The notes beneath the pieces were generated by a model. The model had not been told where the DNA came from and searched no databases. It was given only the letters and a program-made list of their open reading frames with translations. A stretch of DNA of 64,000 nucleotides from Terriglobales bacterium (lineage in GTDB: Bacteria > Acidobacteriota > Terriglobia > Terriglobales > Acidobacteriaceae). The stretch lies in assembly GCA_035487355.1 (NCBI GenBank), contig DATHMF010000006.1:1-64000 (forward strand), read 5' to 3'. The position numbers and the translations under genes are program-made. This document shows, piece after piece, positions 1,195 through 40,826 of the stretch (the stretch's first letter is position 1; each line of letters starts with the position of its first letter).

Positions 1195-1446
1195 AAAAGC
1201 CCGTTCTCCGAGGATTGTGGTTCATAATTGCGTGACGGCATTCAGCATGCCGCGTTGGTTTGAGGTCTTTGAAAATTCGCAAAACAGTCCCAGTTTGCCG
1301 ACCCACGGCACGCCGGAACAGGTTTTGGGCCGTAGACGCAGGTCTGGAGGACTACTCCCTGCGGTCTTATCCTCCCCGTATGTCATTGAACATTAGTGGC
1401 TTATCGCCGCATGGACTACTCAAAGTAATGGGGGAGAGGGGAAGCA

Positions 1447-2460
1447 CTACTCAAAAGGTACAGGCCGGCCAGAAAGTCGGTAAATCTCTTCAATCACAGC
1501 CAGGCTGCGCCGGCCGTCAGTGCCGTCGCAGCGCGGCTTTCCGTCCTCTCGAATGGCGCGAATGAAATCTTCAATGGCGCGTTGATGTCCGCGGACGTCG
1601 CTCACCAGGGGTGAAGAGGCGCTTGGGTTCTGGTCGCGCATGTTTTCGCTGATCAAGCCCTCAGGTTTTTTCCGCAGATCGGCGCTTACGATGCTGTCGT
1701 GTTCAAGAATGACGGTACCTTCAGAGCCTGTAATCTCCACGCGGCGAGGATATCCCGGATAGGCGGCCGTCGTGGCCTGCAGCACTCCCAGCGCACCACT
1801 GGAAAATTCGAGCAGAGCAAGAGCGGTATCTTCGGTCTCGATCTCATGCAGCATGGTTCGAGTGTTGGCTTTTATGTTTTTGATGTCTCCCATGAGCCAG
1901 AGCAGCAAGTCAACCGTGTGCACGCCTTGATTCATCAGTGCGCCTCCACCGTCGAGCGCCCAGGTCCCACGCCAGCGCGAGTCGCGGTAATACTCCGGAG
2001 GCCGGTACCACTTCACGCGCGCATCCGCCAGCAACGGCCGGCCTAATGCGCCGTCTTGAATGAATTGCCGAAGCCGGCAAATATCCGGCTTGAAGCGGTC
2101 CTGAAAGATTACCCCTAGCTTCACTTCCGCTTTCCTGCATTCAGCAATCAGCGCATCGGCGCGCTCGGTGCTGATATCAATGGGTTTTTCCACCAGCACA
2201 TGCAATCCGTGATGCGCTGCCGCAATTCCCTGGCTGGCATGCAAACCCGAGGGGCCGCCAATGATCACCATCTCCATGGAAGGGTGCCCAAGAAATGTTT
2301 CGAAGTCGCTGTAAGCTGTGGCGCCCCAGTCGCGGCTCAGCTGATCAACTTTGTTCTTGTTCGCGCCATAGACGGCTGTGACTTCTACTCCAGCAATTGC
2401 GCGCGCGGCGCGGGCATGTGTATTGCTGATGTTCCCACCGCCGATCAAACCGATCTTCAT
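1447..2460 (-). CDS. Gfo/Idh/MocA-family oxidoreductase
   Basis: Predicted NAD(P)-dependent sugar or cyclitol dehydrogenase of 337 residues, normal for the family. The N-terminal Rossmann motif GLIGGGNIS is at 4-12. The EKP motif that holds the cofactor and catalytic Lys is at 91-93. The C-terminal sheet domain carries GTWALDGGGALMNQGVH at 166-182, with H181 or its neighbour in the usual catalytic place. No signal peptide is seen, so it should be cytoplasmic, unlike the genes upstream. It is the last gene of the minus-strand cluster, 34 bp after the redoxin gene. Family members next to TIM-barrel isomerases often oxidise a sugar hydroxyl, for example to a 3-keto sugar, before C-O or C-C cleavage. 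The substrate cannot be read from sequence. Confidence 0.9.
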   Translation of the reverse strand: MKIGLIGGGNISNTHARAARAIAGVEVTAVYGANKNKVDQLSRDWGATAYSDFETFLGHPSMEMVIIGGPSGLHASQGIAAAHHGLHVLVEKPIDISTERADALIAECRKAEVKLGVIFQDRFKPDICRLRQFIQDGALGRPLLADARVKWYRPPEYYRDSRWRGTWALDGGGALMNQGVHTVDLLLWLMGDIKNIKANTRTMLHEIETEDTALALLEFSSGALGVLQATTAAYPGYPRRVEITGSEGTVILEHDSIVSADLRKKPEGLISENMRDQNPSASSPLVSDVRGHQRAIEDFIRAIREDGKPRCDGTDGRRSLAVIEEIYRLSGRPVPFE

Positions 2461-2494
2461 CTATTAAGCGTACCTCGGCCTTCTGCAGTGCCCG

Positions 2495-3697
2495 TTAGAA
2501 AGTGCTGTTCCAATAAGCCTGCTGCCCAATGTAGCGGTCGTCCGGCAGGTTCTTGAGGATTGCACGCCGTACCTCCACGGCGTTTATGGCGCCCTGGGTT
2601 TTGAAAAGAACTTCGCCATTTGCGCCGATCAGTACCGTATAGGGAACGCCGCCGCTCCAACCGGTTCCGAACGCGGATACCGCGTCAGCCGAGTCGGTGC
2701 CGGCAAACAACAAGTTCCGGTTGATGGCGTGGTGCTCTTCCAGGAATGACTGCACGAACTTCTTCTCGTCTGGGTTGTTGATGCTGACTGTAACGATATC
2801 CACCGCGCGCTTCTTGTACTGACGAACCATCTTCTGCAGCTCGGGAAATTCCACGGCACAAGGTTCGCACCACGTGGCCCAGAAGTTCACCAGCAACAGT
2901 TTGCCGGTGCCGATGTTCGCCCGCAACGCCTTGATCTGATCAACCGAGGCCATCTCGACGTTCACCGGCTCCCGCTCAGATTCACCGATTTCTGCCTGTG
3001 CTCCCGCCTCTTTGTAAGCCCACTTGGTGGAGCAGCCCACAGCCGGAGCGCTGGTTACCGCCACCGGCTTTCCGGAAAGCAACGCCTCGATGGCATCTCT
3101 GGTCTCGTGCTTGGTCGCCAACTCTTCACGGGTACTGTTATCAATGCGGCCTTCGTACTGCAAGGTTCGCTGCGCGTCGAACACAAATGCGTGCGGGGTA
3201 GCCGTGGGTCCGTACTTCAGCGCGACCGCCTGGTTAACGCCGTCGGATAAATAAGGATAGTTGAAGTTGCGGTACTGGGCGCGAAGCTTCATATCTTCAA
3301 GCGAATCTCCCAGGTCGGTGTGGCCCATCTCGCTCAAGTGCACTGCCTTGGGATCGTTGGGATTGATAGCAACCAGCGCCACGCCGCGGTCACGATAGTC
3401 GGCCGCAAGCTGCTTGATCCGCTTTTCATACATCTGGGCCACCGGGCAATGATCACAGGTGAACACGATGACGAGCACCTTGCTGGAGGCGTAGTCGCTC
3501 AGCTTATGCATCTTGCCATCCGTGCCCGGCAGATTGAAATCCGGCGCTTGTGCTCCGATCTTGAGAATCGCGGGAACGTCTCCGCTCTCGTGCACGGGCT
3601 TGTCCTGTGCCTGCCCCACCACACTCAGGAGGAGTGCAAACGCAACCAGGCCGGCAATCTTTACGCCATAGACCGCAATTTTGAACGGCGACTTCAT
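2495..3697 (-). CDS. Exported double-domain redoxin (AhpC/TSA-like plus TlpA-like)
   Basis: Predicted exported thiol-disulfide protein of 400 residues with an N-terminal hydrophobic segment (about 12-30). The first domain (about 45-210) is peroxiredoxin-like, with CDHC at 81-84 and a TPHAFVFD stretch near 167. C222 lies in the Gly-Cys-x-x-Lys linker often seen after this domain. The second domain (about 250-390) is TlpA/ResA-like, with WCEPC at 276-280. Two CxxC-type centres in one chain suggest electron relay or thiol repair in the periplasm. The ATG overlaps the stop of the TIM-barrel gene by four bases, indicating translational coupling. Its placement among exported metabolic enzymes suggests that it maintains their thiols or metal sites, which is inference. 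Confidence 0.85.
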
Positions 3698-4614
3698 ACT
3701 GTCAATCCCAGCCTCTCTTCAAGATACTTCTTGCTGATCAGCGCCGACTCTTTCGGCGTTCTGGATTTATCGGGCTCATGGTCCAGCTCGACCACCGCCC
3801 AGCCGCGGAACTTGATTTTGTGCAGAGCAGCAAACACGGCAGGCAGGTCTACTTTGCCGCGTCCAAGCTCAAGGAAGTTCTCAGCATTTCTTGGATCTGC
3901 GGAATTTGGCCCCGGCTCACCCAAATCCTTGATATGAAGAAAGAGCAGCCGGTCGCGATACTTCTCAATTACCTTGGCTGGATCGCCTCCGCCCGCCTGG
4001 TAATGCGCAATATCCATCTCTAATTTCACGTAGCGTGGATCGCTCGAATCCATCAACCGATCGAGACCTTCCGGGCGCTCGCTGACCGAGTTCATATGAT
4101 TGTGATATCCCAGCGTGATGCCCAAATCGGCGGTACGCTTGCCGATCTCGGTTATCAAGCGGCCCAACTGCTTGTAGTCAGCGGCCGTAATGGCCTGGCT
4201 TTTTGGCTCTTGGTCAAGGACCTGAAGGTAAAGCCCTCCTACATCGTGCAAAAACTTTGCATTCGCAGCGTGCAAGGCAATATCCTGTGCCTCCAATGCC
4301 GGATCAACATGCACTTCGCCGCTGGAAAGTGCAACCATGGTGAGCTGGTGTTGCTGCAGCAGGTCGCGCAACTCGGCGGACTGGAAATCTCTTATGGCGT
4401 TGGCCCGGAGCTGGATGCCGCGATAACCGAGCGAAGAGATGTCGTCTATGGCCTGTCTTTCTTTGTCGCCCCAGGTGATGGCGGCATATCCAATACGGAT
4501 ATCCGGTGGCGCAGCGCTGATGGCTTTGTACGCGGGAATTGACGATGCGACAGTCGCAGCAGCCGCGATGCCCAGGCTGCCGATAAATTCACGACGCGAG
4601 ACTTTGAATCCCAT
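3694..4614 (-). CDS. Tat-exported TIM-barrel sugar isomerase/epimerase (AP endonuclease 2-like)
   Basis: Protein of 306 residues with a twin-arginine signal ([10 protein letters not shown] near 6-15, then an Ala-rich core). The mature part is a xylose isomerase-like TIM barrel. Likely metal and substrate positions are visible in [27 protein letters not shown] and VVELDHEP, which together match the Glu/Asp/His/Glu ligand order of this superfamily. GGAGAG stands before the ATG. The family covers sugar epimerases and enzymes that cleave oxidised glycosides by beta-elimination. Export by Tat suggests folding with metal in the cytoplasm before transport. It is a paralogue in type, not a near copy, of the gene at 5763-6749. 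Confidence 0.85.
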
Positions 4615-4716
4615 GAATCTCTCCTATAGATGTTTGCTGGGACGAAATAACCCGTAGTCAGTTTCAGGCAAACCAAACTGCCTGGATTTAAGGATAGACC
4701 ACACTCTATCATCTAC

Positions 4717-5652
4717 CTATTCCGGTGGCGGCGCCGTGGAAGGAGGCACCGGCTTTCCGCTGGCAGTATTTGGCTCCATCAACTCGATGCGGGTTCCATC
4801 CGGATCAAATAAGTTCGCCTGACGCTTCCCGTTCACCCCAGTCCTGATCTCAATCTTCTGGCCATAGTTCTTGCGCGCCGGACTCGCTTCCAAGGCAGCC
4901 ACCGCCTTCTCGATATCGGGTGTCATCAGGCAAACATGGTTCTTCACTCCCGTCTCTCTAGCATCGGGCGGATTGGAGTAGAGCATGAGTTCGAGGTAAT
5001 CATTTCCATCCGGGACGCGCATATTGACCCAGCTCAATATCTTGCCCGAAGAGCTGCCCCTCCAGAACTCCTGGAAGCCGAGAATGTCGCCGTAAAACTT
5101 CTGCGACAGATCAAGATGACGCACCGTCACGCCCACATGCGGCATGTGAGTGGAAATGCGCGTCTCGGGCAGGTGCTTTCCCTTTTCGCGCCTGGTCCAG
5201 CTATCGGGCTCGTATTGCACGATCTCTACCGTGTGCCCGTCGGGATCGGTAATATTAAAGTTGGAATTGCCAATCTTGCCTTTGCCAACTTTTTCAGGCA
5301 CCTTGATGCCCTTGGAGGCGAGATACGTACGCATGCCTTCCGCCGAATCAGTAAAGAAAGAGATGTGATTCAGGTGGACTCCATCCTGCTTGGGGTCTTC
5401 TGCAAACAGTTCCAGGTATTGGTCTTCGTTAATTTTGATAAATGCTATGCGGTCGGTGCCGTCGTCACGTTTCAACGTATAAGGCTCTTCAAACCCAAGA
5501 AAATCCTTATAGAATGCACGAGCCTTCTGCAAATCGCTGACGTATAGCGCCATGTGAGAAATACCGAGAACGTGCGGACGCTTTACCTCATCGGCCGCCC
5601 GCAGGGTGGTAAGAAGAATTGATACAAATAGAAAAATTGCTATTCGGTTCAT
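4717..5652 (-). CDS. Exported VOC-fold protein, four beta-alpha-beta modules (glyoxalase/extradiol dioxygenase-like)
   Basis: Protein of 311 residues with a Sec signal (MNRIAIFLFVSILLTTLRA). Four VOC modules follow, making two complete domains. Each starts with a His motif (GISHMALYV, LNHISFF, MPHVGVTV, KNHVCLM) and ends with a Glu-containing strand (YLELFAED, VEIVQYEP, YLELMLY, IELMEP). All His and Glu expected for two metal sites are therefore present. The tail after the last module is Pro-rich. The family includes lyases, isomerases and ring-cleaving dioxygenases, so the reaction is open. The gene at 10911-11774 is a clear paralogue, with the same signal peptide and the same CTTTCAACTT(T)A-like leader directly before the ATG, which indicates duplication within the cluster. 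Confidence 0.85.
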   Translation of the reverse strand: MNRIAIFLFVSILLTTLRAADEVKRPHVLGISHMALYVSDLQKARAFYKDFLGFEEPYTLKRDDGTDRIAFIKINEDQYLELFAEDPKQDGVHLNHISFFTDSAEGMRTYLASKGIKVPEKVGKGKIGNSNFNITDPDGHTVEIVQYEPDSWTRREKGKHLPETRISTHMPHVGVTVRHLDLSQKFYGDILGFQEFWRGSSSGKILSWVNMRVPDGNDYLELMLYSNPPDARETGVKNHVCLMTPDIEKAVAALEASPARKNYGQKIEIRTGVNGKRQANLFDPDGTRIELMEPNTASGKPVPPSTAPPPE

Positions 5653-5762
5653 TAAGTTGAAGCCCCCTGGTTTGATATAGCAGTTTCATGGTCATGCATT
5701 CGCTCTCCCAGCGCCTGAAGCTGGGGCCCACTTTCGCTCCATCATGGTTAGTAAACAGCTTG

Positions 5763-6749
5763 TCAGGCTGTCTCTGCAATCGCCTGCCGGAGTTCAGCAA
5801 GGAACTTCGGCACCACCGTAAAAGGATCATAATCCTTTCCCTTTGCGGAGAGTGTTTCAATCGGAAGATAGCCGCGGTAGCCCGACGAGCGGACAATGCG
5901 GATAAATCTTTTCAGATCAAGCGGCACATCGCTTTCCGCGCCAAACGCGCTTTGCTTCACCTGCCAGTTCACGGCATAGGGTGCTACTTTGGCCATGTCG
6001 GCGTATGGGTCCTTCGATTTGAAGTAGCCGGTATCCACGATGGCACCGCACCACTCGGAGTCGACCAGGTTGATGAGCTTCAAAAGATGATCACCCGTTT
6101 TGAGAAAGTCTCCGTGATTCTGCACCCCAATGATTACGCCATATTTCTTGCCGTGTGCCGCACACTCTCGCAGGTCGGCCGCTATCCAGTCTGCAACCTG
6201 GTCCCAAGTGTAACCTTTGGCCACCTGCTCCCAGCTCAAGTTTTTCATCTGGGTATCAGCAAATACGCGCAGCACCGGAGCACCCATGCGCGACGCGACC
6301 TCGACCCATTGCTTGATGTGCTCTACATCGGCGGCCCGCTTGGCTTTGTCGGGCAGGGTAAAGTTGTTGCGGACGCCCGACCCGCTGATGCCGATGCCAA
6401 ATTCGAAGGCTTTGCGTTTGAGGTCGTTCACATAGTCATCGCTGGGCACATCGGGATATCCCGGGAAAAAATACCCGGTGGCATCGAATCCGTCAAAATT
6501 ATACTTGGCGCAGAAGTCAACGAGTTCGAATAAGTCGATCCCCGAACCGTGGCGTTTGACCTTGTCATTCAGCATTTTGCTGAAGGAATATGCATTGAGC
6601 GAAACCTTGAGCATAGACCCGCCCAGCCTCTTGATTGGCTGCGTCTCGGCGAGAGCGGAAAGCCCACCGAGGCCGAGGCCTGCGGCAGCCGCGAGCGGAA
6701 GCACGCTCGCACTTTTGAGAAAGTCCCTACGATTGTGATTGAGTTTCAT
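5763..6749 (-). CDS. Tat-exported TIM-barrel sugar isomerase/epimerase, second copy
   Basis: I chose the ATG at 6749 because it opens the protein with a standard Tat signal (MKLNHNRRDFLKSASVLP, then an Ala/Gly/Leu core); the longer frame to 6800 would bury it. The mature protein, about 300 residues, is a xylose isomerase-like TIM barrel. Candidate ligands lie in IGVQNHGDF, GAIVDTGYF, VNWQVKQ and YLPIETLS. The start lies only 7 bases after the stop of the Spy-like gene and has no clear ribosome site, so coupled translation is likely. It differs clearly from the enzyme at 3694-4614, so the two may act on successive intermediates. Confidence 0.85.
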   Translation of the reverse strand: MKLNHNRRDFLKSASVLPLAAAAGLGLGGLSALAETQPIKRLGGSMLKVSLNAYSFSKMLNDKVKRHGSGIDLFELVDFCAKYNFDGFDATGYFFPGYPDVPSDDYVNDLKRKAFEFGIGISGSGVRNNFTLPDKAKRAADVEHIKQWVEVASRMGAPVLRVFADTQMKNLSWEQVAKGYTWDQVADWIAADLRECAAHGKKYGVIIGVQNHGDFLKTGDHLLKLINLVDSEWCGAIVDTGYFKSKDPYADMAKVAPYAVNWQVKQSAFGAESDVPLDLKRFIRIVRSSGYRGYLPIETLSAKGKDYDPFTVVPKFLAELRQAIAETA

Positions 6750-6756
6750 GATGTGA

Positions 6757-7479
6757 TTATTTTTGTGCCATTGCAGTGGAGAGCTGTTGTATATCTGCAT
6801 CGATCTTCTTCTGCTGCTCCGGCGTCAGCGGCGGAGCATTGTCGCGGCGAGCAGCTTGCTTAACCTGCAATGTCATCGCTCGTTGTTCCTCCGACGACAA
6901 GGCCGAGTAATTGGATATCGCCTGGCTCAGCAACTCTTCTGCGTCAAACGGGTCGGTGCTGGCCTCAGCTTTCTTGCCTCCACCGTTTTTTGAGCCACTC
7001 TTCCTATCACCCTGCAGCGCATCGCTCGTGCCCTTGGTCACGGCTTCTATTTCGGCATCCATTTTCTTTTGCTGATCGGGCGTGAGCAAGGGCCGAATCT
7101 GGCGACGCGCGGAGACTTTAATCTTCAGCATCATGGCTTGTTTCTCTTCTGGTGTAAATGCTGCGAAGCGGAGTAGAGGCTTGCTCACCGACTCTTCACT
7201 GTGCAGGAGCGGCTCGATCTTGAGTTCCTGTTCGCAAGTCAGGCCAAATGCCGCTGTCATTCTTTCCAGGAGCGAGTGTTTCCCCGGAGGCAGACCTTCG
7301 CAAGCCGGCGCAGGTTGCGGAGCCGGTGCAGCCTGCGCCGTTTGTGGTGCAGCGTGTACAACAGCAAGAGGGTTGTTGAGCAAGACCGCAAATGTGCACA
7401 ATGCCAGCATCAAGACAGACAAACCTGTGGTTCTCATCTGTCCAAGGCATCGGTTTCTATAAGTCGTCATCGTCATCAT
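6757..7479 (-). CDS. Exported Spy/CpxP-like protein with repeated LTPxQQ segments
   Basis: Protein of up to 240 residues with an N-terminal signal (hydrophobic core about 18-45). A Pro/Ala-rich linker leads into two similar helical repeats. Each has 'Glu-Glu-(Lys/Gln)-x-Ala-Met-x-Leu-x-(Ile/Val)-Lys', then a basic stretch, then LTPDQQKKMDAEI (first) or LTPEQQKKIDADI (second). LTxxQ helices are typical of Spy/CpxP periplasmic chaperones and related proteins. Three in-frame ATGs (7479, 7476, 7470) follow AAGGAG; 7470 has the best spacing. The gene follows the receptor gene by 15 bp. I infer a periplasmic chaperone-like role, with moderate certainty. Confidence 0.7.
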   Translation of the reverse strand: MMTMTTYRNRCLGQMRTTGLSVLMLALCTFAVLLNNPLAVVHAAPQTAQAAPAPQPAPACEGLPPGKHSLLERMTAAFGLTCEQELKIEPLLHSEESVSKPLLRFAAFTPEEKQAMMLKIKVSARRQIRPLLTPDQQKKMDAEIEAVTKGTSDALQGDRKSGSKNGGGKKAEASTDPFDAEELLSQAISNYSALSSEEQRAMTLQVKQAARRDNAPPLTPEQQKKIDADIQQLSTAMAQK

Positions 7480-7494
7480 TCTCCTTGGTTATTT

Positions 7495-10400
7495 TCAAAA
7501 TCTGTAGATCAGGGCCAATTGCATGACGCGCGCAGCATTGGCCTTGGTAATGCTGCCGCCGGCAGCGGTATCAATTGAAGTGTTGGGAAGCTGGAAGTTC
7601 GTATGGTTCGTGAGGTTGAACGCTTCCCAGCGGAACTGCAATCTGCCGTACTCACTGATGCTGAAATTCCTGGATACCGATAGATTGATGGCAAGAGAGC
7701 CGGGGCCATCGAGAATGTTCCGCCCAGAGTTGCCGTAACGAAAAGCAGTGAGCGGAACGATCTGAAAGGCGGCAAGATTGAACCACGCCAGGTGAGATGG
7801 GTTGGACAGGGTGCCGCTGGCGATACGGTCGGGGCGAGTGGGTTGGCCCTTGTCTACTGAGAAGCCTTGCGTTTGCACAGGCGTGAAGGGTTGGCCGCTG
7901 TACGCTGTCCCAGTGCCGGCAAGTTGCCAGCCGCGCACGAAAATATTTCTGGTAAAGGGAAGCTGGTAGATGACGCTGGTGCTGAAGACATGGCGGATGT
8001 CGAAGTCCGAGCGTCCTCGTTCGCTTCTCAGATTCAGCGAGTCCTGGGCAAAGCCTTTGAAGCCGCCATCCCCCGCGTAGTTCAGGCCTGAGTTTTCATC
8101 GATGGATTTACCGTAGGTGTAGTTGGCGCGGAAAGACAGGCCATTGTGAGACTGTTTGCGCAAAGTCACAGTGCCCGCGTTGTAATTGGAAGTGGCCCCG
8201 AAAGAGTAAAACTCGATATCACCATAGAAATTTGAAAACGGACGGGGACAAGCAGGACAGGTGCCGTCGGCCAACGCCAACTGTGGATTTTGGTTCCGCA
8301 ACTGCTGATTGATGTCGTATTTTCGCCCTAAATGCGTCCCTTTCGATCCGGTGTAACCTGCCTCGATGGCCACGCCTTTACCCAATTCGCGTTCGATGGT
8401 GAAGTTCCAGCTTTGCAGGTAAGGCTCGGGCGCGTTCACGGCAAACCCGGTTGGGGTAAGTATGCCCTGATCCTTGGCCAGCGCGGACGGAAACGGATTG
8501 GAAAGGGTTATCTGACCGGGATTGCTGGTTGATCCTGTAAAGGTTTGGCTAACGGAAAACGGAAAGCCGCCGGAGATATCGGTGCGGATAGCGCTCAATC
8601 TCGACCCGGTATAGAAGATGCCATAACCGCCCCGTACTACAGTTTGGTTGTTATTGAACGGCCGCCAGGCAAAGCCTATGCGTGGCGCCACGGCCTTATA
8701 GTCGGTGTGAACTGTGGACTTCGGCAGTCCAAAGTCGCTCGCCACTCCCACCTGGCCGGTAAGTCCCACGCCGGCAAGGATGGAAGCCAGGTTGGGCACG
8801 GTCGCAGCGCTGCCCAGGATCACCTTTCCCGTAGCGGGAACATAGTTTGAAAATTGCCCGTCTTTTTCATAAGGCGCAACTGGGACTTCATACCGCACAC
8901 CCAGGTTGAGAGTCAGGCTGGGAAGGACTTTGTAGTCGTCCTGAACGTAGATCGCATAGTTGTTGCTGAAAATATGGTTGGTTACCGTGCCGGTTTTCAG
9001 AGTGGTGGTATCGGGAAGGCCGAGAAGAAAATCCGCAAACGGGACGCCGCTAAATGTCTTCTTGAACGAGAAGACACCGTTGAATCCGTCGTTAGTCGGC
9101 TGGAAGTAACCCACGCGCAAGATCTCGCCGCCGATTTTGATAGTGTGCTTTCCCTTGTTCCAGGTCACCACATCACTTAAGTCGTAACTATTGACGGTAA
9201 ACCGGATCGGATTGAAATGGCTGTCGCCCACGGTGGCGAAACCCGTGATGCTGAAACTGGGGAAGCCTTCCAGGGCCGGGTTATTGGTGGTTCCGGGGAT
9301 CCCAAGCTGCGCCGCAAAGTTGGTTCCGGCATCAGCGCTGACCTGATGGCTGGTACTGCGCGTGAGTCCTACATGGAACTCATTGATCAGAGTTGGGGTA
9401 AAAATTCGCGTCTCGGAAATGCCGTAGATTGCGTCGCCGCGGCGCGTGGTACTGCCGAAAGTCCCCAGCGGAGAGCCAGAAGTAGGATTAATAGAGTCTG
9501 AAGAGCGATGGATTACATGCACAGAAAGATTGTCTTTCTCGCCCAGTCTCTGGTCTACCTTAAGCACAAAGTTGTCGTAATTATCGACGTTGTTGTTATT
9601 CGCGATGTAATTGCTGCCTCCGTTGAGAAGAGGGTCAAGGTTGGGAAGAGGATAGAGGTTCAGCAACGCCTGCGATACCGGACTGATGCATGTGGCCGGA
9701 ATCTGGCTGCCGGTAAAGGTCTTGCAGGACCCGCTTTTGAACGGAGACTTCAGCGTCCCCTTGGATTGCGAAAAATTTCCCTGGCGCTCGAGCAGAGTGG
9801 GCACAACGGTGATGGAAGGAGAGCCTTGTACCTGCCGCTGGCTTTCCCAGCTCACCATGAAAAACGTGCGGTCATGACCGTTGTACAGCTTGGGAATCAC
9901 CACCGGACCGGTGAGTGTGCCTCCGAACTGGTTGCGACGGAGTTTGTTCTTGGTCGTCAAGTCGAAGAAATTGCGTGCATCGAACATATCGTTGCGCACA
10001 AACTCAAAGAGCGAAGCGTGAAGCCGGTTGCCCCCCGACTTGAGCAGCATGTTGACCACGCCCCCGGCCAGGCGTCCGTATTCCGCCGAGTATCCGGAGG
10101 TCTGAAACTTGAATTCCTGCAGGGCATCGAGCGGCGGGCTGACCTGCACGCCGGCATCGCGGGCACTCTGGTCGTTGAACCCGTCAATGATGACGTTGCT
10201 GGCGTCGGCGCGGGCGCCATTCGTAACATAGGCCGAGCCCTTGGCTCCTTGTTCGCCGGGCTGAACTCCCGGAACGGTGAAGGCCAAATCGTTGAAATCC
10301 CTTCCATTCAACGGGATCTCCGCGATCTCCTGCGGCGCAACAACATCGCCCTTAGAAGAGGTCTCGGTGTTGATGAGAGGCACTTGGGCATTGACTTCAA

Positions 10401-10761
10401 TAGTCTGCGAGACTGCCCCTAGTTCCAGAGGAGCATCAAGGCGCGCCGTTTGGTCGGCTTTCAATTCCAGGTTAGCCTCACGTAGTTGCTTGAAGCCGGC
10501 CTTGTCAATGGTTACTTCATAGACCCCGGGTAACAGGTTGGAAACGGTGTATTCTCCGCCACTCCCGCTTCGCGCGGTGCGAACCTGGTTGGTGTTCACG
10601 TTGCGTATCTTGATTTCAGCGTCAAGAATTGACGCGTGCGAGGTGTCTGTAACTCGACCCACCAGGGTCGCTGTGGGCTCCTGCGCCATCCCTATGCCAG
10701 CCAGCATGAAGGTGAGAAGCGCTACGAACAGCAAGGCAACTGTCTTAGTATTAGTCCTCAT
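7495..10761 (-). CDS. TonB-dependent receptor-like outer membrane protein with carboxypeptidase-regulatory-like domain (Oar type)
   Basis: Protein of 1088 residues. A signal peptide (about 1-26, ending GIGMA) precedes a carboxypeptidase-regulatory-like beta sandwich (about 29-110: ATLVGRVTD ... PGVYEVTIDKAGF). A plug domain follows (EIAEIPLNGRDFNDLAF) and then a long barrel that ends in Arg-Phe, the usual C-terminal signal for outer membrane assembly. GGAGGAGG lies directly before the ATG. It shares the layout of 24747-28034 and 37494-40826. Members of this group are abundant in Acidobacteriota and probably import large oligomers, but substrates are mostly unknown. Its place among sugar-modifying enzymes suggests a glycoside or related compound. 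Confidence 0.9.
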   Translation of the reverse strand: MRTNTKTVALLFVALLTFMLAGIGMAQEPTATLVGRVTDTSHASILDAEIKIRNVNTNQVRTARSGSGGEYTVSNLLPGVYEVTIDKAGFKQLREANLELKADQTARLDAPLELGAVSQTIEVNAQVPLINTETSSKGDVVAPQEIAEIPLNGRDFNDLAFTVPGVQPGEQGAKGSAYVTNGARADASNVIIDGFNDQSARDAGVQVSPPLDALQEFKFQTSGYSAEYGRLAGGVVNMLLKSGGNRLHASLFEFVRNDMFDARNFFDLTTKNKLRRNQFGGTLTGPVVIPKLYNGHDRTFFMVSWESQRQVQGSPSITVVPTLLERQGNFSQSKGTLKSPFKSGSCKTFTGSQIPATCISPVSQALLNLYPLPNLDPLLNGGSNYIANNNNVDNYDNFVLKVDQRLGEKDNLSVHVIHRSSDSINPTSGSPLGTFGSTTRRGDAIYGISETRIFTPTLINEFHVGLTRSTSHQVSADAGTNFAAQLGIPGTTNNPALEGFPSFSITGFATVGDSHFNPIRFTVNSYDLSDVVTWNKGKHTIKIGGEILRVGYFQPTNDGFNGVFSFKKTFSGVPFADFLLGLPDTTTLKTGTVTNHIFSNNYAIYVQDDYKVLPSLTLNLGVRYEVPVAPYEKDGQFSNYVPATGKVILGSAATVPNLASILAGVGLTGQVGVASDFGLPKSTVHTDYKAVAPRIGFAWRPFNNNQTVVRGGYGIFYTGSRLSAIRTDISGGFPFSVSQTFTGSTSNPGQITLSNPFPSALAKDQGILTPTGFAVNAPEPYLQSWNFTIERELGKGVAIEAGYTGSKGTHLGRKYDINQQLRNQNPQLALADGTCPACPRPFSNFYGDIEFYSFGATSNYNAGTVTLRKQSHNGLSFRANYTYGKSIDENSGLNYAGDGGFKGFAQDSLNLRSERGRSDFDIRHVFSTSVIYQLPFTRNIFVRGWQLAGTGTAYSGQPFTPVQTQGFSVDKGQPTRPDRIASGTLSNPSHLAWFNLAAFQIVPLTAFRYGNSGRNILDGPGSLAINLSVSRNFSISEYGRLQFRWEAFNLTNHTNFQLPNTSIDTAAGGSITKANAARVMQLALIYRF

Positions 10762-10910
10762 TTTTCCTCCTCCAGCACCCTGTACTGCCGGTTTTCCTAA
10801 CCGGTCTATATTTTTCGGGGGTTTTCAGCGGAGAGGGTGCTGTTAACCACGACCTCCGCCTTCCCTTCTTGCGCGTACTCGATTCTGTTGCTTATTTATC
10901 CTTTCCGTCC

Positions 10911-11774
10911 TCAATTCTCTTTGGGTGGCTCCATCAGCTCAACCCGATTTCCATCCAAGTCATATAGTTCAGCTACATGCTTACCATTTCCTAGAACGTG
11001 GTTCTCAATCTCACGAAAACTCTTGGCCGCGGGCTCGGCCGAAAGCATCGCGGTGACCTTGGGCACGTCGGGTACAGAAAGGCAGATGTGATCTTTAACG
11101 TGATAACGATCAATCGTGGCTAGTTTCCGTTCGAAGCCGAGCTCAAAGCGGTCGGGCCCTGCGCCTATCTTCATCTTCGTATTGTCTCCCGTTCCTTCAA
11201 ACCCAAAAGCGTCGCCGTAAAACTTGGCGGCCACGTCGCGGTCGCCGATCAGGAGCCCAACGTGATCAATGTGAGTTGAAATGCGCGACTCCGGCATGAA
11301 TTTGCCTTTGCCCTTCGCCGTCAAACTATGGGGTTCATACTGGACGATCTGGATCGTGAAGCCGAACGGGTCAGTAACATCGAAGCTCAAATCACCGGCT
11401 TGGTCCTTGGTTACCGCCTCGGGGACCTTGACGCCAATGGAAGCCAGGTAGGTACGCATGCCGCTCGCATCGTCGGTCTCGAAGCCAACATCATGAAGAA
11501 AACCGTGGTTCTTGGGATCTTCAGCAATGAGTTCGACGAACTGATGATCGTTGATTTTGACGAATACCACGTGCTCAGCCCCATCTGGGTTCTTCAAGGA
11601 AAAGGCCTCTTTGAAGCCGAGAAAATCTTCGTAGTAGGCGCGGGCTTTGCTCAGATCGCTGACATAGTAGGCAATATGTGCAACGCCGAGAACACGTGGA
11701 TGCTTTGCTTCCTCCGCGGCTCGAACCGTCATAACCAAGCACGGTAAAAGAAGAAAAACTGCAATTCGGTTCAT
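10911..11774 (-). CDS. Exported VOC-fold protein, paralogue of 4717-5652
   Basis: I start this at the ATG at 11774, which matches the paralogue's N-terminus (MNRIAVFLLLPCLVMTVRA), and not at 11858. The protein then has about 287 residues: signal peptide and four VOC modules (GVAHIAYYV, FLHDVGF, IDHVGLLI, KDHICLSV). The strand that ends module 2 reads IQIVQYEP where the paralogue has VEIVQYEP, so one expected Glu ligand of the first site is Gln. The second site looks complete. It is the first gene of the minus-strand cluster, 149 bp before the receptor, and diverges from the regulator at 11955. The altered ligand suggests that the first domain is structural or uses a different metal set. Confidence 0.85.
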   Translation of the reverse strand: MNRIAVFLLLPCLVMTVRAAEEAKHPRVLGVAHIAYYVSDLSKARAYYEDFLGFKEAFSLKNPDGAEHVVFVKINDHQFVELIAEDPKNHGFLHDVGFETDDASGMRTYLASIGVKVPEAVTKDQAGDLSFDVTDPFGFTIQIVQYEPHSLTAKGKGKFMPESRISTHIDHVGLLIGDRDVAAKFYGDAFGFEGTGDNTKMKIGAGPDRFELGFERKLATIDRYHVKDHICLSVPDVPKVTAMLSAEPAAKSFREIENHVLGNGKHVAELYDLDGNRVELMEPPKEN

Positions 11775-11954
11775 TAAAGTTGAAAGTCCCTTCGTGTGTT
11801 GCGCGACATTTAATGCTGAAGGAAAAAGCCCAGCAAGTGAATTCACGGTTAAAGTCATTTGTTGTACCCGCGCCTCACAACTTCATATTTTGCAGTCACT
11901 TAGATTAGAAAACTCTTTACGTAAAGACCTGCTGAGTAATCCCCCGGTTTTTTC

Positions 11955-13289
11955 GTGGGATGGAATACCGCCACTTGGGATACAATGCCGCCTGCGCCAG
12001 TGCCTCGGAAAAATCCCATCAGCGCTGTTGATAGCCGGAAACTGCTAGTTGAGCGGGTCGCCTCCAGCAGCTATCTCAGCAAATCAGCCCGGCTGCGCGA
12101 CATGTTTCTCTATCTGTGTGAGCGTGTGCTTGAACAATCCGCGGATGAGATTCACGAGCATGAAGTAGGACACAAAGTCTTCGGACGCCCTCCAGACTAT
12201 GACACCACTGCCGACAACATAGTCCGGGTTCATGCCACCATGCTGCGTAAGCGCATTGAGCTGTATTTTGCGACTGAAGGCAGCCGTGAGCCTGTCATTA
12301 TTGATATCCCCAAGGGGAACTATGCTCCCGTCTTCCACAAGCGCCCTGTCACTCCACAGCCGCAGCCGGTACCTATGCCCGCTGTTCCGGTTGAACGCCG
12401 GTTCAATTGGAAGATGTGGCTGCCTATAGCTATAGCGACGGTCTTTGCTTGCACAACCGGTTTTCTGTTCTTTCGAATTCACGCCCTGACGCAAGGTAAT
12501 AACGCGATACCGGCAAACCAGGTGGCTGTCCGGCAATTCTGGTCTCAAATTTTTCGCCCCGATAAACCGGCGGACATCGTTCTCGATGATGCAGCGCTCG
12601 GTTTTTTTCAGGAGTTCACACCGCATCAGGTTACGCTTTCAGAGTATTTTGATCGCAGTTATCTGCAGTCCGTTGACCAGAGTGCCGCTACCGCTAAGCT
12701 GGACCGCAATTTCACAGGACCATTGATTTTGAAGCGGCAGTCAAGTTACGCGGATACTGCGCTCCTCTGGAAGCTTGCCCAGACCGCTGCCGCATTGCGA
12801 AGCGACGCCAAGCTCCACTTTGCCCGCGACTACTCGTTCCGTGAAGTGAAAGCTGACAATGTTATTCTTCTCGGCAATAGCCGGTCCAACCCATGGATCG
12901 AGCCCTTCGAGAGTCATCTGGCGTTGCGCTGGAAGTTCGACAATTCGCTTAGCGCTTATTACCCCGTAGATACCGCTGTGGCTGACCAGGAAAAATTCCA
13001 TATCATCACACAAACCAGTGAGCCGCATGAAGGCTACGCTACAGTTTCGCTTCTTCCGAATTTGGGCGGTACCGGCAAGGTGCTGATTATCTCTGGAACC
13101 GGGGGCGCCGCCGTGGGTGCTGCCCTGGATTTTCTTTCCGACGAACCGTCTGTATCACAACTCCGTTCTCGTCTGCCTCAAAGCAGGGCTGCTGATTTTC
13201 CATATTTTGAAGCTCTGCTGAGAGTAAAGAGCCGGAGCAGTTCACCGAGGGACACAACCATCGTCGTCTGCCGTCCGCCGCAACTATAA
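11955..13289 (+). CDS. Membrane-anchored winged-helix-type regulator, one-component (ToxR/CadC-like plan)
   Basis: Protein of 444 residues. The N-terminal region (about 25-130: SARLRDMFLYLCERVLE, HKVFGRPPDY, DNIVRVHATMLRKRIELYF, DIPKGNYAPVF) is a domain common in acidobacterial regulators and resembles a winged helix in 'transcriptional regulator' proteins. A Pro-rich linker and one transmembrane helix (about 153-175) follow. The C-terminal part of about 265 residues should be periplasmic. The plan fits direct signalling from periplasm to promoter. It is divergent from the receptor/VOC/TIM-barrel cluster, with 180 bp between, and is a likely regulator of it. A second in-frame ATG at 11985 is possible; neither start has a good ribosome site. 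Confidence 0.7.
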   Translation: MGWNTATWDTMPPAPVPRKNPISAVDSRKLLVERVASSSYLSKSARLRDMFLYLCERVLEQSADEIHEHEVGHKVFGRPPDYDTTADNIVRVHATMLRKRIELYFATEGSREPVIIDIPKGNYAPVFHKRPVTPQPQPVPMPAVPVERRFNWKMWLPIAIATVFACTTGFLFFRIHALTQGNNAIPANQVAVRQFWSQIFRPDKPADIVLDDAALGFFQEFTPHQVTLSEYFDRSYLQSVDQSAATAKLDRNFTGPLILKRQSSYADTALLWKLAQTAAALRSDAKLHFARDYSFREVKADNVILLGNSRSNPWIEPFESHLALRWKFDNSLSAYYPVDTAVADQEKFHIITQTSEPHEGYATVSLLPNLGGTGKVLIISGTGGAAVGAALDFLSDEPSVSQLRSRLPQSRAADFPYFEALLRVKSRSSSPRDTTIVVCRPPQL

Positions 13290-24746: not shown

Positions 24747-27700
24747 ATGAGGCGGTTTTTGTTTCTTTCGTTGGTAATACTTCTTTCGAGCAGCGTGCTC
24801 TTTGCTCAATTTGACTCCGCAAGCGTCTTGGGAGCAGTGCGGGATAGCACGGGTGCTCTGGTATCGGGCGCGAACGTCACGCTCACCAATCTGGAAACTG
24901 GAATCAGCGCCCAAAGCACCACGACCGATGCTGGGCAGTACGAATTTCCCTCCGTGCGTGTTGGCCGGTACAAAATCGTTGTGGAAAAGCAAGGATTCGC
25001 CAAGGCAATCGCCGATGATGTCGTCGTCAATGTGAGTGCCCGCCAGCGGGTTGATCTTACGCTCTCACCAGCACAAGCGACAGAGTCGGTCGAAGTCAAT
25101 GATGCCGTGAGTTTAGTTGAAACTGATTCCAGCCAACGCGGACAGATCGTCTCCAAAACTCAGGCTGTGGAATTGCCGCTCAATGGACGCGAATATTCGC
25201 AGCTCGTTCTGCTCACCAGCGGAGTGCGGCAATCGGCGGTAGGAACCGGCAGCGTCTCGACCAACCGCGAGGGTTCGTTCAACGTCAATGGCCTGCGCAG
25301 CACCTTCAATAACTATCTTCTCGATGGACTCGATAACAACGCCTACGGAACCAGCAACCAGGGTTTTTCCAATCAGGTGGTCCAGCCTTCGCCTGACGCA
25401 CTGGCCGAATTCCAGGTAGTTACAAACAATGAAAGCGCCGAGTACGGGCGTGCCGGCGGAGCGACCATCAATGTCGCTTACGCCAGCGGCGGCAACCATA
25501 TTCACGGCACGGTGTATGAGTTTCTGCGCAACAACGCTGTTAATGCTTTCCCGTTTCCCAAGCCCCCGGATGGAAGAAAGCCGCAGTTCAATCGCAACCA
25601 GTTCGGGTTTACCTTTGGCGGTCCAATCATCCAACAAAAGGCCTTCTACTTTGTGGATTACGAAGGTTTCCGGCAGAGTAGAGGAATCGTCTCTACCTCC
25701 ACGATACCCACACTGGCGCAACGCTCCGGCATTCTTAACAAGAATGTTTACAATCCACTTACCGGGGTACTCTACCCAGCCGGCACACAGGTTCCAGCCA
25801 GTGCGATATCGCCCTTTGCGCAAAGCGTTTTGGCTGCGCTTCCTCAGCCTACCAATTCCGCTGCATCGAACAATTACGTCATCACTCAGCGTTTCACAAA
25901 CCACACTGACAAGTACGACGCCAAGTTCGATTATCAATTCAACGAGAAGATCAATGGATTTCTGCGCTTGAGCCAGCGCAAAGCCAATCTGGTGGATAAC
26001 CCTCCGATTCCCTTACCTTCAGGCGGGGCCGGCAATGGCAATACCAGAATTTTGAACCAGCAGATCGCCACCGGATTTACCTGGGCGCGCAGCGCGACAC
26101 AATTACTGGAAGCCCGCTTTGGAATTTCTCGCACTCAAGGCGGAAAATTTCCGCTGGCGCTCGGTCTGCCGAGCGCGCAGAGCCTTTTTGGAATTCCCGG
26201 ATTGCCCACGGACCCGCGCATCACTGGTGGCGTTCCAACCGAGTTGATCTCAGGGTTCTCCGATCTGGGTAGACAGGCGACCAATCCGCAATGGCAATAT
26301 CCTCTGGTCTACAACCCCAAGATCAACTATTCGATCTTTCATAAACGGCATTCCATAAAGTTTGGATACGAATATCAGTGGATCGGGACCACGGTTCAAG
26401 ACGTAAATCCGCTCTACGGACGTGACTCTTATACTGGCGGCTTCAGCCGCTACCCCACCGGAGCACAAGGCGGGCTGACTGCGATTGCAAATGGTCCTAT
26501 TTATAATTTTGCCGATTTTCTCTTCGGTGCGCGCGCTCAATATGCGTTAAGCACATTTTTTATCGCCCACTTGCGCCAGCAACAGCACTACACATATATC
26601 CAGGATGATTGGAAGGTAACCGACCGGCTGACGCTCAATCTCGGGCTGCGCTATGAATACGCCACTCCCTATTACGAGAAAAACAACCATCTGACGAACT
26701 TCGATCCTGCTTCGCTCAGCATGATCTCGGCCAAAGATGGAGGCATTACCGACCGTGCCCTGGTCAATCCTGATCGCAACGACTTCGCCCCACGCTTTGG
26801 CTTTGCCTTCGCTCCGACCAATAAGATGTCAATTCGCGGAGGCTACGGCGTCAGTTACATTCATTACAACCGCGCCGGTGCTGGAAATCTGCTTCCCATC
26901 AATGGCCCGCAGGTGATCAATGCCGTGGTCAACCAAACCAACCCTCGCGCTGCGACTTTCCTGACCACCGATCAGGGCTATCCCTTGGGCATCACTGCAC
27001 CCAGCAACTTTAATCCGCTCACCGCCAACATCACCTACGTTCCTAAGAACTACCGCACCAGCTACGTTCAAAGCTGGTTTCTTTCCGTGCAACGCGAACT
27101 GGCCAAAAACACCATCATTGACGTCGCCTATGTTGGCAACCATGCCGCCAAATTGCTGCTCTTTGCCAATTTCAATCAGGCCCATCCTTATAACAGCGGC
27201 ACCCTCGCCCAGAACCGGCCCATTTCTGCTTTTGGCGATATCACTTACGCCTTCAATGGTGGAGATGCGAATTATCACAGCTTGCAAGTACGCTTTGAGC
27301 ATCGCTATTCCGGCGGACTTACTTTACTGAACTCCTTTACTTACTCTCACGCCATTGATAATGGATCGGGATCGCTGGAGAATCCTTTCGGCAACTTCCC
27401 CGCCCCGCAGGATATCTATAATCTCAGGGCCGAGCGTGCAACCTCCGCCTATGACCAACCGCTGACCAACACCACCAGCCTGGTTTATGAACTTCCTTTC
27501 GGCCATAGCAGAAAATTTTTGAATTCATTGCCCGGCTTTGCCGATCAGGCTGTTGGCGGATGGGAGATCAGCGTTATCAATCAGGCCAATAGCGGCCAAC
27601 CCATCACCATTACCTACAGCCCTTCAGCAAACGTGCAGGTCTCGGGAATTCAGCAGGACTTCCGCGGGGCCAATAACTACCGCCCCAACCTGATTCCGGG

Positions 27701-28034
27701 AATTCCGGTTCTCACTGGCTTCAACCCAGCGAGTGGGCTTCCCTATTTGAATAGTGCCGCCTTCGCCGTACCAACCGGCACACCCTTCGGCAATGCTGGT
27801 CGCAACATCGCCCGCGGTCCAAATTTCAACCAGTTGGACTTTGCCGCGAACAAGAATTTCCGGCTGCCCTTTGAAGGGACTTACCTGCAATTCCGCGCCG
27901 AGTTCTTTAACCTCTTCAACCACGCTAACTTCATCCCGCCACCCAGCAACATCTCGAGCGGGGGCTCATTCGGTAAGATTACCAGTGCTTATGATCCGCG
28001 TCTGATTCAATTCGGCTTGAAGCTGGGCTTTTAG
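24747..28034 (+). CDS. TonB-dependent receptor-like outer membrane protein (Oar type), second of three
   Basis: Protein of 1095 residues: signal peptide (about 1-20, ending VLFAQ), carboxypeptidase-regulatory-like domain (about 24-105: SVLGAVRDSTGALVSGANV ... VGRYKIVVEKQGF), plug (AVELPLNGREYSQLVLL and a conserved 'Leu-Leu-Asp-Gly-Leu-Asp-Asn-Asn'), and a long beta barrel ending LKLGF with terminal Phe. It is divergent from the giant phosphoesterase, so the two may serve one nutrient, for example phosphate-containing polymers; this is inference. A ribosome site (AAGGGG) precedes the ATG. Confidence 0.9.
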   Translation: MRRFLFLSLVILLSSSVLFAQFDSASVLGAVRDSTGALVSGANVTLTNLETGISAQSTTTDAGQYEFPSVRVGRYKIVVEKQGFAKAIADDVVVNVSARQRVDLTLSPAQATESVEVNDAVSLVETDSSQRGQIVSKTQAVELPLNGREYSQLVLLTSGVRQSAVGTGSVSTNREGSFNVNGLRSTFNNYLLDGLDNNAYGTSNQGFSNQVVQPSPDALAEFQVVTNNESAEYGRAGGATINVAYASGGNHIHGTVYEFLRNNAVNAFPFPKPPDGRKPQFNRNQFGFTFGGPIIQQKAFYFVDYEGFRQSRGIVSTSTIPTLAQRSGILNKNVYNPLTGVLYPAGTQVPASAISPFAQSVLAALPQPTNSAASNNYVITQRFTNHTDKYDAKFDYQFNEKINGFLRLSQRKANLVDNPPIPLPSGGAGNGNTRILNQQIATGFTWARSATQLLEARFGISRTQGGKFPLALGLPSAQSLFGIPGLPTDPRITGGVPTELISGFSDLGRQATNPQWQYPLVYNPKINYSIFHKRHSIKFGYEYQWIGTTVQDVNPLYGRDSYTGGFSRYPTGAQGGLTAIANGPIYNFADFLFGARAQYALSTFFIAHLRQQQHYTYIQDDWKVTDRLTLNLGLRYEYATPYYEKNNHLTNFDPASLSMISAKDGGITDRALVNPDRNDFAPRFGFAFAPTNKMSIRGGYGVSYIHYNRAGAGNLLPINGPQVINAVVNQTNPRAATFLTTDQGYPLGITAPSNFNPLTANITYVPKNYRTSYVQSWFLSVQRELAKNTIIDVAYVGNHAAKLLLFANFNQAHPYNSGTLAQNRPISAFGDITYAFNGGDANYHSLQVRFEHRYSGGLTLLNSFTYSHAIDNGSGSLENPFGNFPAPQDIYNLRAERATSAYDQPLTNTTSLVYELPFGHSRKFLNSLPGFADQAVGGWEISVINQANSGQPITITYSPSANVQVSGIQQDFRGANNYRPNLIPGIPVLTGFNPASGLPYLNSAAFAVPTGTPFGNAGRNIARGPNFNQLDFAANKNFRLPFEGTYLQFRAEFFNLFNHANFIPPPSNISSGGSFGKITSAYDPRLIQFGLKLGF

Positions 28035-40400: not shown

Positions 40401-40826
40401 CTCGGATGTAACCTCAACGGTCGTCACCGTACCGGCCACAGCCAGATGAACAGGGACTGTAGTAACGCTGCCTACCTGGACCACGACCTGTGTCGCCTTG
40501 AAGGCGGCGAAACCCTGCTTATCGATAGTTACGGTATAAATACCCGATTGCAGGTGAATGACACGGAAATAGCCCGAGCTATCACTGGTTCCATTTTTTT
40601 CAGCGTTCGTCGCATCATTGTGAACCACCACCTTCGCCCCTGAAACCAGGGCCCCGGCGGTGTCGGTCACAGTGCCGTCAATGGCCCCATCAGTGGTGGA
40701 CTGGGCGGCAGCGAAGCCAACCATGATGAATGTACATGTCATTGCCAGCAAGATCTGGGCCAGCAAGATCTGGCGCGCAGAAGATAAACAACCGCTAAAA
40801 ATATTTAGCCTAGCCTGTTTTTGCAT
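37494..40826 (-). CDS. TonB-dependent receptor-like outer membrane protein (Oar type), third of three
   Basis: Protein of 1110 residues. The N-terminus has a signal with an internal AQILLAQILLA duplication, coded by a 15-bp repeat. The carboxypeptidase-regulatory-like domain follows (about 48-125: GAIDGTVTDTAGALVSGAKV ... SGIYTVTIDKQGF), then the plug (EISNLPINGGRWSSFTLL, NNNTIDGGDNNQAFF), and the barrel ending GIRVKF. AGGAGGGGAG precedes the ATG. It lies between the exported adenosine deaminase-family gene and the NupC-type transporter, so nucleosides, nucleotides or nucleic acid fragments are candidate cargo. AAGATTAAT repeats upstream may control it. Confidence 0.9.
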   Translation of the reverse strand: MQKQARLNIFSGCLSSARQILLAQILLAMTCTFIMVGFAAAQSTTDGAIDGTVTDTAGALVSGAKVVVHNDATNAEKNGTSDSSGYFRVIHLQSGIYTVTIDKQGFAAFKATQVVVQVGSVTTVPVHLAVAGTVTTVEVTSETPQINYNTPELAPTLNQTEISNLPINGGRWSSFTLLTPTAVSDSNGFGLVSFRGISTLLNNNTIDGGDNNQAFFSEERGRTRIAYSTPKAAVEEFQVNTSNYSAEYGRSAGGVINTVTKSGGNDFHGEAYFYDRDNGWAAANAFTKVSTPDPVTGIFTSHNIKPKDWRKMAGFGVGGPIIKDKLFFFLAFDYQIHNFPGTAVTSNPNAFFAAPSAATLTTLGTRLGVTPAQAATIYNNDLIGLSTMLGPVPRTGEQNIFFPKIDWQITPKHHASFSVNRMRWASPAGVQTQATNTNGKASFGNDFVKETWGVAKLDSTLTSNIVNELRYQYGRDFEFEFTQSPSPYEVATLVNTTTPVPYNNPLGLPPSVSITNGFTFGVPTFLQRPAFPDETRNQIADTVNWTHGNHNIKFGMDFGHVHDHSKNLRTQFGSFSYSSLLNYFSDLNKQNTCGSLAVPRPCYSSFSQAFGPLGFEFNTNDYAFFAQDDWKVLPRLSLSLGLRYEYEQFPSPFSNLVNPLAPLTGHMPSDKNNIGPRIGFAYDIFGDGKTVLRGGYGIYYGRVINSTIYNALTATGMPGGQPFFSLSPTSAVSGPCTLPFPQILGAQPTCPGAKPSIAFFAKNLQNPQIHQTDLTLEHELGWGTVLSVSYLGSMGRSLPGFTDLNVCTSQDLTGATGCTNPVGTVTYKILNGGPIKTPTITEPLFTQRKDPNFGNVTTIFSGINSSYNALVTQVNHRMSHHVQFSVSYTWSHAIDFNQNQSTFSDTNDLLVPNNIRLEKGNSIYDVRHRFVAHAVMTSPWKVGGWLGILANDWEFDPIYQIQNGLPYSLTSAGSAPGGLNSGLNGSGGDTRIDVVGRNTFRRPTTWVSDIRFAKHFKVQEKYELELSGDFFNIANKQNVTGVNSTGYIATTGTVQTPTGPFTCSAAAPCLNFNVDTPANNFAPLFGTITSTNSNFIYTPRQIQVGIRVKF

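Follow-up and report, generated by a model that had tools for sequence, protein, structure and literature searches.

The window analysed here covers the initial 64 kb of a contig of 250 kb in the 5.4-Mb genome of a Terriglobales bacterium. Eight open reading frames (ORFs) in it, all on the minus strand between 1447 and 11774, encode a Gfo/Idh/MocA oxidoreductase (GFO), two AP_endonuc_2 TIM barrels (TIM1 and TIM2), two two-domain VOC proteins (VOC1 and VOC2), a TonB-dependent receptor (TBDR), a double redoxin (RED) and a low-complexity protein (HYP). The best reading of this cluster is a variant of the oxidise-eliminate-reduce route of glycoside breakdown. We give even odds to the proposal that it serves the catabolism of an unusual, most likely uronic-acid-containing glycoside, with a keto-sugar chemistry of which one part takes place in the periplasm and the other in the cytoplasm. 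Somewhat more tentatively, we propose that the exported two-domain VOC metalloproteins make up an as yet undescribed class of enzymes that takes part in the metabolism of keto-sugars (probably keto-uronides) in the periplasm. Its members, from Acidobacteriota as well as some Verrucomicrobiota and Ignavibacteriota, would act beside TIM-barrel eliminases and are in some genomes fused to 3-keto-disaccharide hydrolase domains. Direct support comes from the gene content, the export signals seen on inspection, the conservation of the unit and of its metal ligands, and a fusion of VOC2 orthologues to the PF06439 domain. In the open-licence literature on VOC proteins with 3-keto-glycosides, DUF1080, uronates or Acidobacteria we found no account of the present combination, and no described counterpart of the VOC pair in such a pathway; an earlier note on this DNA had already called the addition of the VOC pair and the double redoxin unfamiliar.

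Gene content and conservation of the cluster

All eight same-direction genes described in the earlier note are present with their domains. The list below adds a ninth member that it had overlooked, a divergent, membrane-anchored winged helix-turn-helix (wHTH) protein with a transmembrane (TM) stretch.

1447..2460, minus: GFO, predicted cytosolic Gfo/Idh/MocA oxidoreductase, candidate 3-keto-sugar reductase or dehydrogenase, 337 aa (PF22725, PF02894, PF01408)
2495..3697, minus: RED, predicted exported double redoxin, AhpC/TSA plus ResA/TlpA-like thioredoxin, 400 aa (PF00578, PF13905)
3694..4614, minus: TIM1, predicted Tat-exported AP_endonuc_2 TIM barrel, IolE / 3-keto-glycoside eliminase-like (PF01261)
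4717..5652, minus: VOC1, predicted Sec-exported two-domain VOC protein, 311 aa (PF00903 in both halves)
5763..6749, minus: TIM2, predicted Tat-exported AP_endonuc_2 TIM barrel, 328 aa (PF01261)
6757..7479, minus: HYP, predicted exported low-complexity protein with Spy/LTXXQ-like repeats
7495..10761, minus: TBDR, Oar-type receptor (OMP_b-brl_4 PF25183, 775.7 bits; CarboxypepD_reg PF13620; plug PF07715)
10911..11774, minus: VOC2, second predicted exported two-domain VOC protein, a divergent and apparently ancient paralogue (PF00903)
11955..13289, plus: divergent membrane-anchored wHTH-TM protein, putative regulator of the cluster

Export signals were read from the sequence by eye and with a pattern. 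Both TIM barrels appear to carry twin-arginine, Tat-type motifs, VOC1, VOC2, RED and HYP appear to have leaders of the Sec type, and no export signal was seen in GFO on inspection. The earlier assignment of signals to both TIM barrels and both VOC proteins, with none on GFO, is thereby upheld. The start of TIM2 is most likely the ATG at 6749 (coding 5763-6749, Tat motif NRRDFLK), and that of VOC2 most likely lies at 11774. From GFO to VOC2 the intergenic gaps are 34, -4, 102, 110, about 7, 15 and 149 bp, a spacing that resolves three tight blocks (GFO-RED-TIM1, VOC1 alone and TIM2-HYP-TBDR) plus VOC2. A single mRNA across the eight genes is possible; promoter and terminator scans of the cluster gave site numbers no higher than in shuffles.

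Searches with VOC1, TIM1, TIM2, GFO, the redoxin, the regulator and the receptor covered 150 relatives; for TIM2 they extended to 396 genomes from the phylum and for VOC2 to 398 from the family, and a VOC alignment was searched against named genomes. ORF calls in relatives were mechanical, and some loci lie on contigs of metagenome-assembled genomes (MAGs) that may be chimeric (L163/L040 and L201; L and G numbers denote loci and genomes). The exact eight-gene set had no second occurrence among the genomes searched. In another genus of the same family (L295, G740), one stretch of about 13 kb contains both VOCs, both TIM barrels, a GFO, the receptor, the regulator and a major facilitator superfamily (MFS) transporter, with identities to the window proteins of 67 % for TIM2, 50 % for VOC1, 60 % for TIM1, 38 % for GFO and 51 % for TBDR. 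Gene order there differs from that of the window, and GFO directly adjoins a TIM barrel gene. A further genome of that genus (L254, G432) has the same set without TIM1 and GFO. The order TBDR-HYP-TIM2 is identical to the window in L165 (Bryobacteraceae), with gaps of at most 10 bp and a divergent regulator-VOC pair a few kb away, and L166 (Terriglobia) has the divergent regulator followed by VOC-TBDR-HYP, with TIM2 and an alginate-lyase-like gene nearby. Further subsets occur in L189, L196, L201 and L202. The receptor homologues in the clusters of L165, L166, L254 and L295 share 51-64 % identity with TBDR.

When TIM2 alone was searched, the two non-self matches of at least 60 % identity (G104 and G432) both lay inside VOC clusters; no VOC gene was identified near TIM2-like proteins of 36-51 % identity. 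A GFO homologue stands beside TIM1 in L044, L083, L295 and L298. L044 and L298 have the arrangement TBDR-TIM1-TIM3-GFO, where TIM3 is a third, cytosolic TIM barrel, and in both a VOC1 orthologue lies no more than about 8 kb away. VOC orthologues also accompany PF06439-like, Tat-TIM and Tat-GFO genes in L182 (Ignavibacteriales) and L042 (G030). Because of the joint occurrence in L295, the partial sets in L254, L165 and L166 and the location of the TIM2 matches in VOC clusters, we accept that these genes probably constitute a conserved functional unit with a loose gene order. The neighbourhood co-occurrence of TIM barrels, VOC proteins and receptor that had been anticipated is thus full in the genus of L295 and partial in several others. 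An absence of conserved gene order, named beforehand as refuting, is not the case, given the identical TBDR-HYP-TIM2 order in L165 and the joint cluster in L295.

Several other arrangements were noted. A second recurrent module (L044, L298, L080, L082 and L084) consists of a receptor, a Tat-type TIM1, a cytosolic TIM3 and a cytosolic GFO and/or a Tat-type GFO. In a sister species of the same genus (L040 / L163), TIM2 is reduced to residues 257-300 around 2000-2200 of L040, and the contig continues into RND efflux genes; this is either a real deletion or a chimeric MAG contig. Two more Oar-type receptors lie in the window at 24747-28034 and 37494-40826, with 26-29 % identity to TBDR.

Metal sites of the VOC proteins and TIM barrels

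VOC1 has two predicted metal sites, H33/E81/H96/E143 in domain 1 and H172/E221/H239/E290 in domain 2 (HEHE). The domain-2 site, with E221 as an extra Glu ligand, is invariant in all 31 VOC sequences. The domain-1 site is altered in VOC2 (H96 to D, E143 to Q) and a few others; domain 2 of VOC2 is intact. HEHE sites of this kind are found in glyoxalase-type isomerases such as Ni/Zn glyoxalase I. The AlphaFold2 (AF2) model of VOC1 (predicted local distance difference test, pLDDT, 92) adopts the two-domain extradiol-dioxygenase fold, with VIA-align Z scores of 20.6-22.8 over ~250 residues against these enzymes, and catechol, biphenyl and homoprotocatechuate dioxygenases are the closest folds. Among NCBIfam models, the match to HpaD TIGR02295 was full-length and weak (51.7/321 bits), and those to glyoxalase I and YaeR fell below the cutoffs (67.8/140 and 59.1/165 bits). 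The extradiol-dioxygenase signature PS00082, which includes the catalytic His and Tyr and was searched as a pattern, was found in none of the 31 sequences. Since this signature is missing and the domain-2 HEHE site is kept throughout, aromatic ring cleavage by the VOC proteins appears unlikely, and a role as isomerase, epimerase or lyase on a keto-sugar would be the more likely one.

In the tree, VOC2 groups with the VOC protein of L254 (support 100/100) on a long stem that is separate from the VOC1 orthologues, and VOC2 shares 58 % identity with that protein and 49 % with VOC1. An origin of the pair by simple tandem duplication was rejected on the basis of this grouping, and the two paralogues are judged from the tree to be old. 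In L254 and L295, the VOC2 orthologue is in frame with a 3keto-disac_hyd domain (PF06439; E 8e-33 and 5e-33), the fusion in L295 spanning 7257-9188, and in L196 and L202 free-standing PF06439-like domains are encoded next to a VOC gene. The fusion is the strongest tie of the VOC proteins to keto-sugar chemistry. A TIM, GFO or PF06439-like gene was present within 8 kb at 17 of 58 close VOC loci versus 1 of 16 remote ones, a borderline enrichment (Fisher p 0.05-0.06) among loci that are neither independent nor fully unbiased. Remote VOC homologues (33-47 %) lie mostly among unrelated genes and were rejected as evidence. A separate joined ORF in a Bryobacterales MAG (L201, 13398-14510) connects the first ~107 residues of a VOC2-type protein to a Spy/LTXXQ-like tail, through recombination or misassembly.

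The Mn eliminase AtOGE uses an HxH, D, H and E metal/catalytic set (PMC10628242). TIM1 contains this set: H171-N-H173, D201/H204, H227 and E276 are invariant in 11/11 orthologues, and its HxH aligned with those of IolE and 8tcs/8tcd. Its score against the NCBIfam model of IolE was 111.6 bits (cutoff 290). TIM2, with residues numbered from a start at 6755, departs from the set at Q212 and Q265, and its Q212-N-H214, D241, Q265 and E300 are invariant in 8 orthologues. The AF2 model of TIM2 (pLDDT 80.6) is nearest to 4ovx (Z 30.2) and also near Art22, ketose 3-epimerases, DgpB-C and YcjR.

Compartments, substrate and proposed route

GFO reached no NCBIfam cutoff, the best model being inositol 2-dehydrogenase (157.3/355 bits). 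Its nearest solved structures are 3q2k (172 bits; entry title 'oxidoreductase') and the glucuronide-3-dehydrogenase 8tdi (97 bits), and it carries the motifs EKP at 91 and GVHTVD at 179. The gene is near AP_endonuc_2 genes, with RED alone between it and TIM1. The earlier note had placed the dehydrogenase first, oxidising the glycoside before its cleavage; the compartments speak against this order, as GFO is signal-less and predicted cytosolic whereas TIM1 and TIM2 bear Tat motifs. A terminal role as 3-keto-sugar reductase fits the predicted compartments better. This role would remove the mismatch but would require a periplasmic 3-dehydrogenase encoded elsewhere. The A. tumefaciens pathway closes, after elimination, with the reduction of 3-keto-glucose by a Gfo enzyme (PMC10628242), and the levoglucosan route is given in the title of its report as oxidation, elimination, hydration and reduction (PMC7676230). 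A separate periplasmic 3-dehydrogenase is also supported by L298, where a homologue (68 %) of the Tat-type GFO of L080 adjoins the cytosolic GFO.

Clues to the substrate come from genes next to the relatives. Alginate_lyase PF05426 is encoded in L196 and similar proteins in L166 and L202. For the MFS transporters of L295 and L166 the best match is the D-galactonate transporter subfamily, with scores under its cutoff. Relatives of GFO with 64-70 % identity adjoin a glucuronate isomerase gene in the window's own genome (L143), a gene for mannonate dehydratase ManD in L149 and one for rhamnogalacturonidase in L147, all three calls being above NCBIfam cutoffs. Because of these neighbours and the glucuronide-3-dehydrogenase among the structural kin of GFO, a uronic or sugar-acid glycoside is the favoured substrate. 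The outer-membrane-to-cytoplasm glycoside route put forward earlier thus survives in part: the genes recur as a unit and the GFO/TIM chemistry points to keto-sugar cleavage, whereas the aromatic-sugar conjugate proposed with it is not supported, as PS00082 is absent and the neighbours indicate uronic or sugar acids. On contig C82 of the same genome, L143 holds a GFO paralogue (70 %) together with a fucose permease, an L-fuconolactonase, a galactarate-dehydratase-like protein and the glucuronate isomerase. On contig C13, two very large ORFs (>1200 aa) have alginate-lyase-like parts (L268 1814-6022 and L269 1-3679).

From these data we infer a substrate class, an order of steps and the reactions of the VOC proteins and TIM2. 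The Oar-type receptor would import an oligosaccharide or conjugate into the periplasm, where a dehydrogenase encoded outside the cluster would form the 3-keto-glycoside. TIM1, with its predicted Mn-type H-x-H/D/H/E site, would cleave, by beta-elimination, either the glycosidic bond or a different beta C-O bond. Its Gln-substituted sister TIM2 and the two VOC proteins may then act on the keto-sugar or enone product by epimerisation, isomerisation or hydration, by way of an enediolate bound to the metal. The resulting small keto-sugar acid would cross the inner membrane, for which related clusters carry the sugar-acid-type MFS transporters, and its reduction by cytosolic GFO would yield a normal sugar acid. 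Sensing of the substrate and control of the cluster may fall to the divergent, membrane-anchored wHTH protein. Cleavage of sugars by oxidation and not by hydrolysis has recently come to be recognised as an alternative to glycoside hydrolases. If the proposal is true, this chemistry would extend to the abundant and poorly characterised Acidobacteriota of soil, with two exported VOCs, a TIM barrel carrying Gln substitutions and a division between compartments as its new elements, and a recurring exported VOC family would gain a function. The fusion of VOC2 to the 3-keto-disaccharide hydrolase domain makes the question testable with one protein.

The cluster shares features with several known systems. 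Described oxidation-elimination-hydration-reduction pathways (AtOGE/AtHYD/Gfo of A. tumefaciens, PMC10628242; levoglucosan, PMC7676230; DgpA-BC and CarBC for C-glycosides; the dehydrogenase families of Bacteroides BT_2158/BT_2159) likewise have a GFO and an AP_endonuc_2 TIM barrel with HxH/D/H/E, and the 3-keto-disaccharide-hydrolase domain is shared by clusters related to that of the window. Unlike them, the window cluster combines predicted exported TIM barrels with a non-exported GFO, and it has two TIM barrels, one of them Gln-substituted, two exported VOCs, an Oar-type receptor and a membrane wHTH regulator. At 1400-11900 every minus-strand ORF of at least 150 aa, the size range compared, is assigned, and none of the assigned ones resembles the small beta subunit of DgpB-C/CarB-C. 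There is likewise no unassigned ORF of SusD size, so that the OMP_b-brl_4/CarboxypepD_reg receptor differs from a SusC/SusD polysaccharide utilisation locus in having no such partner. The E. coli ycj cluster also pairs a GFO with a TIM barrel, but is cytosolic and fed by an ABC transporter, and is not known to include a VOC protein. Its YcjR (3-keto-D-glucoside 4-epimerase, 6wn6) is one of many equally close folds to the TIM2 model (Z 24.3). IolG and IolE of myo-inositol catabolism are the best NCBIfam models for GFO and TIM1, both far below cutoffs, and lack the exported TIM and VOC partners. In the 3-dehydroshikimate dehydratases QuiC1/QsuB, a TIM barrel and an HPPD-like VOC domain, whose activity is unproven, form one protein (PMC7442255; 5hmq), and the active-site set of QsuB is Glu134/Asp165/His168/Gln191/Glu239 (PMC7442255). 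The pairing of an AP_endonuc_2 TIM barrel with a VOC is shared, and Q191 of QsuB parallels Q265 of TIM2 in motif order, not by superposition. By contrast, TIM2 and VOC1 are separate exported genes outside a shikimate context, and the TIM2 set is Q212/D241/Y244/Q265/E300, with Gln212 at the Glu134 position.

Competing explanations and peripheral genes

Several observations weigh against the proposed route. Every functional assignment rests on homology. TIM2 has lost two usual metal ligands and reached no NCBIfam cutoff. The initial periplasmic dehydrogenase is absent from the window's cluster, in which PF06439, lyase and MFS genes were not found either. The GFO of L295 is only 38 % identical to that of the window, so this slot may have been refilled. 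Furthermore, at 41 of the 58 close VOC loci the surrounding 8 kb are devoid of TIM, GFO and PF06439-like genes, which suggests that the VOC family has other uses.

Three other explanations were considered. The VOC proteins share their fold with type I extradiol dioxygenases and the two-domain Mn 'glyoxalase' 3b59, and the closest folds together with the weak HpaD match would suit exported dioxygenases acting on an aromatic glycoside, with its catechol aglycone as the ring that is cleaved. We regard this as highly improbable, as PS00082 is missing (31/31), the invariant E221 is instead a feature of glyoxalase-type isomerases, and aromatic catabolic genes were not recurrent in the neighbourhoods examined. 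The VOC proteins further differ from that group in being exported and in having HEHE in domain 2 and usually also in domain 1. The HEHE site also raises the idea that the VOC pair and the redoxin have a protective role in the periplasm outside the pathway, with a glyoxalase-type removal of reactive dicarbonyls or enones derived from keto-sugars. An AhpC/TSA-thioredoxin redoxin in the same cluster and the frequent location of the VOC family away from sugar genes agree with this. It is nevertheless unlikely: the fusion of VOC2 to 3keto-disac_hyd and the joint retention of two old paralogues and TIM2 point to a specific reaction, the redoxin lacks a conserved association with the VOCs, and a periplasmic enzyme would not be expected to have access to cofactors of the glutathione type.

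It is about equally doubtful that the cluster is a mosaic, in which two independent units with unrelated substrates, receptor-TIM2-VOC and GFO-TIM1, stand side by side. The halves do occur alone, as VOC-TBDR-HYP-TIM2 in L165/L166 and as TBDR-TIM1-TIM3-GFO in L044/L298, and gaps of 102-149 bp separate the blocks. However, the halves are rejoined in a different gene order in another genus (L295), and VOC1 orthologues are also near the TIM1-GFO half in L044/L298. We retain the periplasmic-cytoplasmic keto-sugar route as the preferred reading.

RED and HYP appear from their distribution to be optional and outside the constant core. RED has the CxxC motifs TCDHC (80) and WCEPC (276). The earlier note had counted the double redoxin in the pathway set; we rejected it as a core member, because its best homologues had no VOC gene found nearby except in one other locus, L177. 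HYP had no family match in Pfam or NCBIfam; in L165 its homologue stands directly between TBDR and TIM2, and in L166/L043 a homologue follows TBDR. The window regulator had no Pfam match, and its orthologue in L165 (8561-9829) matches Trans_reg_C PF00486 (E 4.7e-4); its TM stretch was read from the protein itself. The regulator gene lies divergently beside a VOC gene in L165, L166, L167, L189 and L201 and within the clusters of L254 and L295. This membrane-anchored wHTH family, with a ToxR/CadC-like layout, is nearly invisible to Pfam and recurs beside VOC/receptor clusters. In the window's own genome, a regulator paralogue on contig C13 (L269) adjoins an alginate-lyase-like gene.

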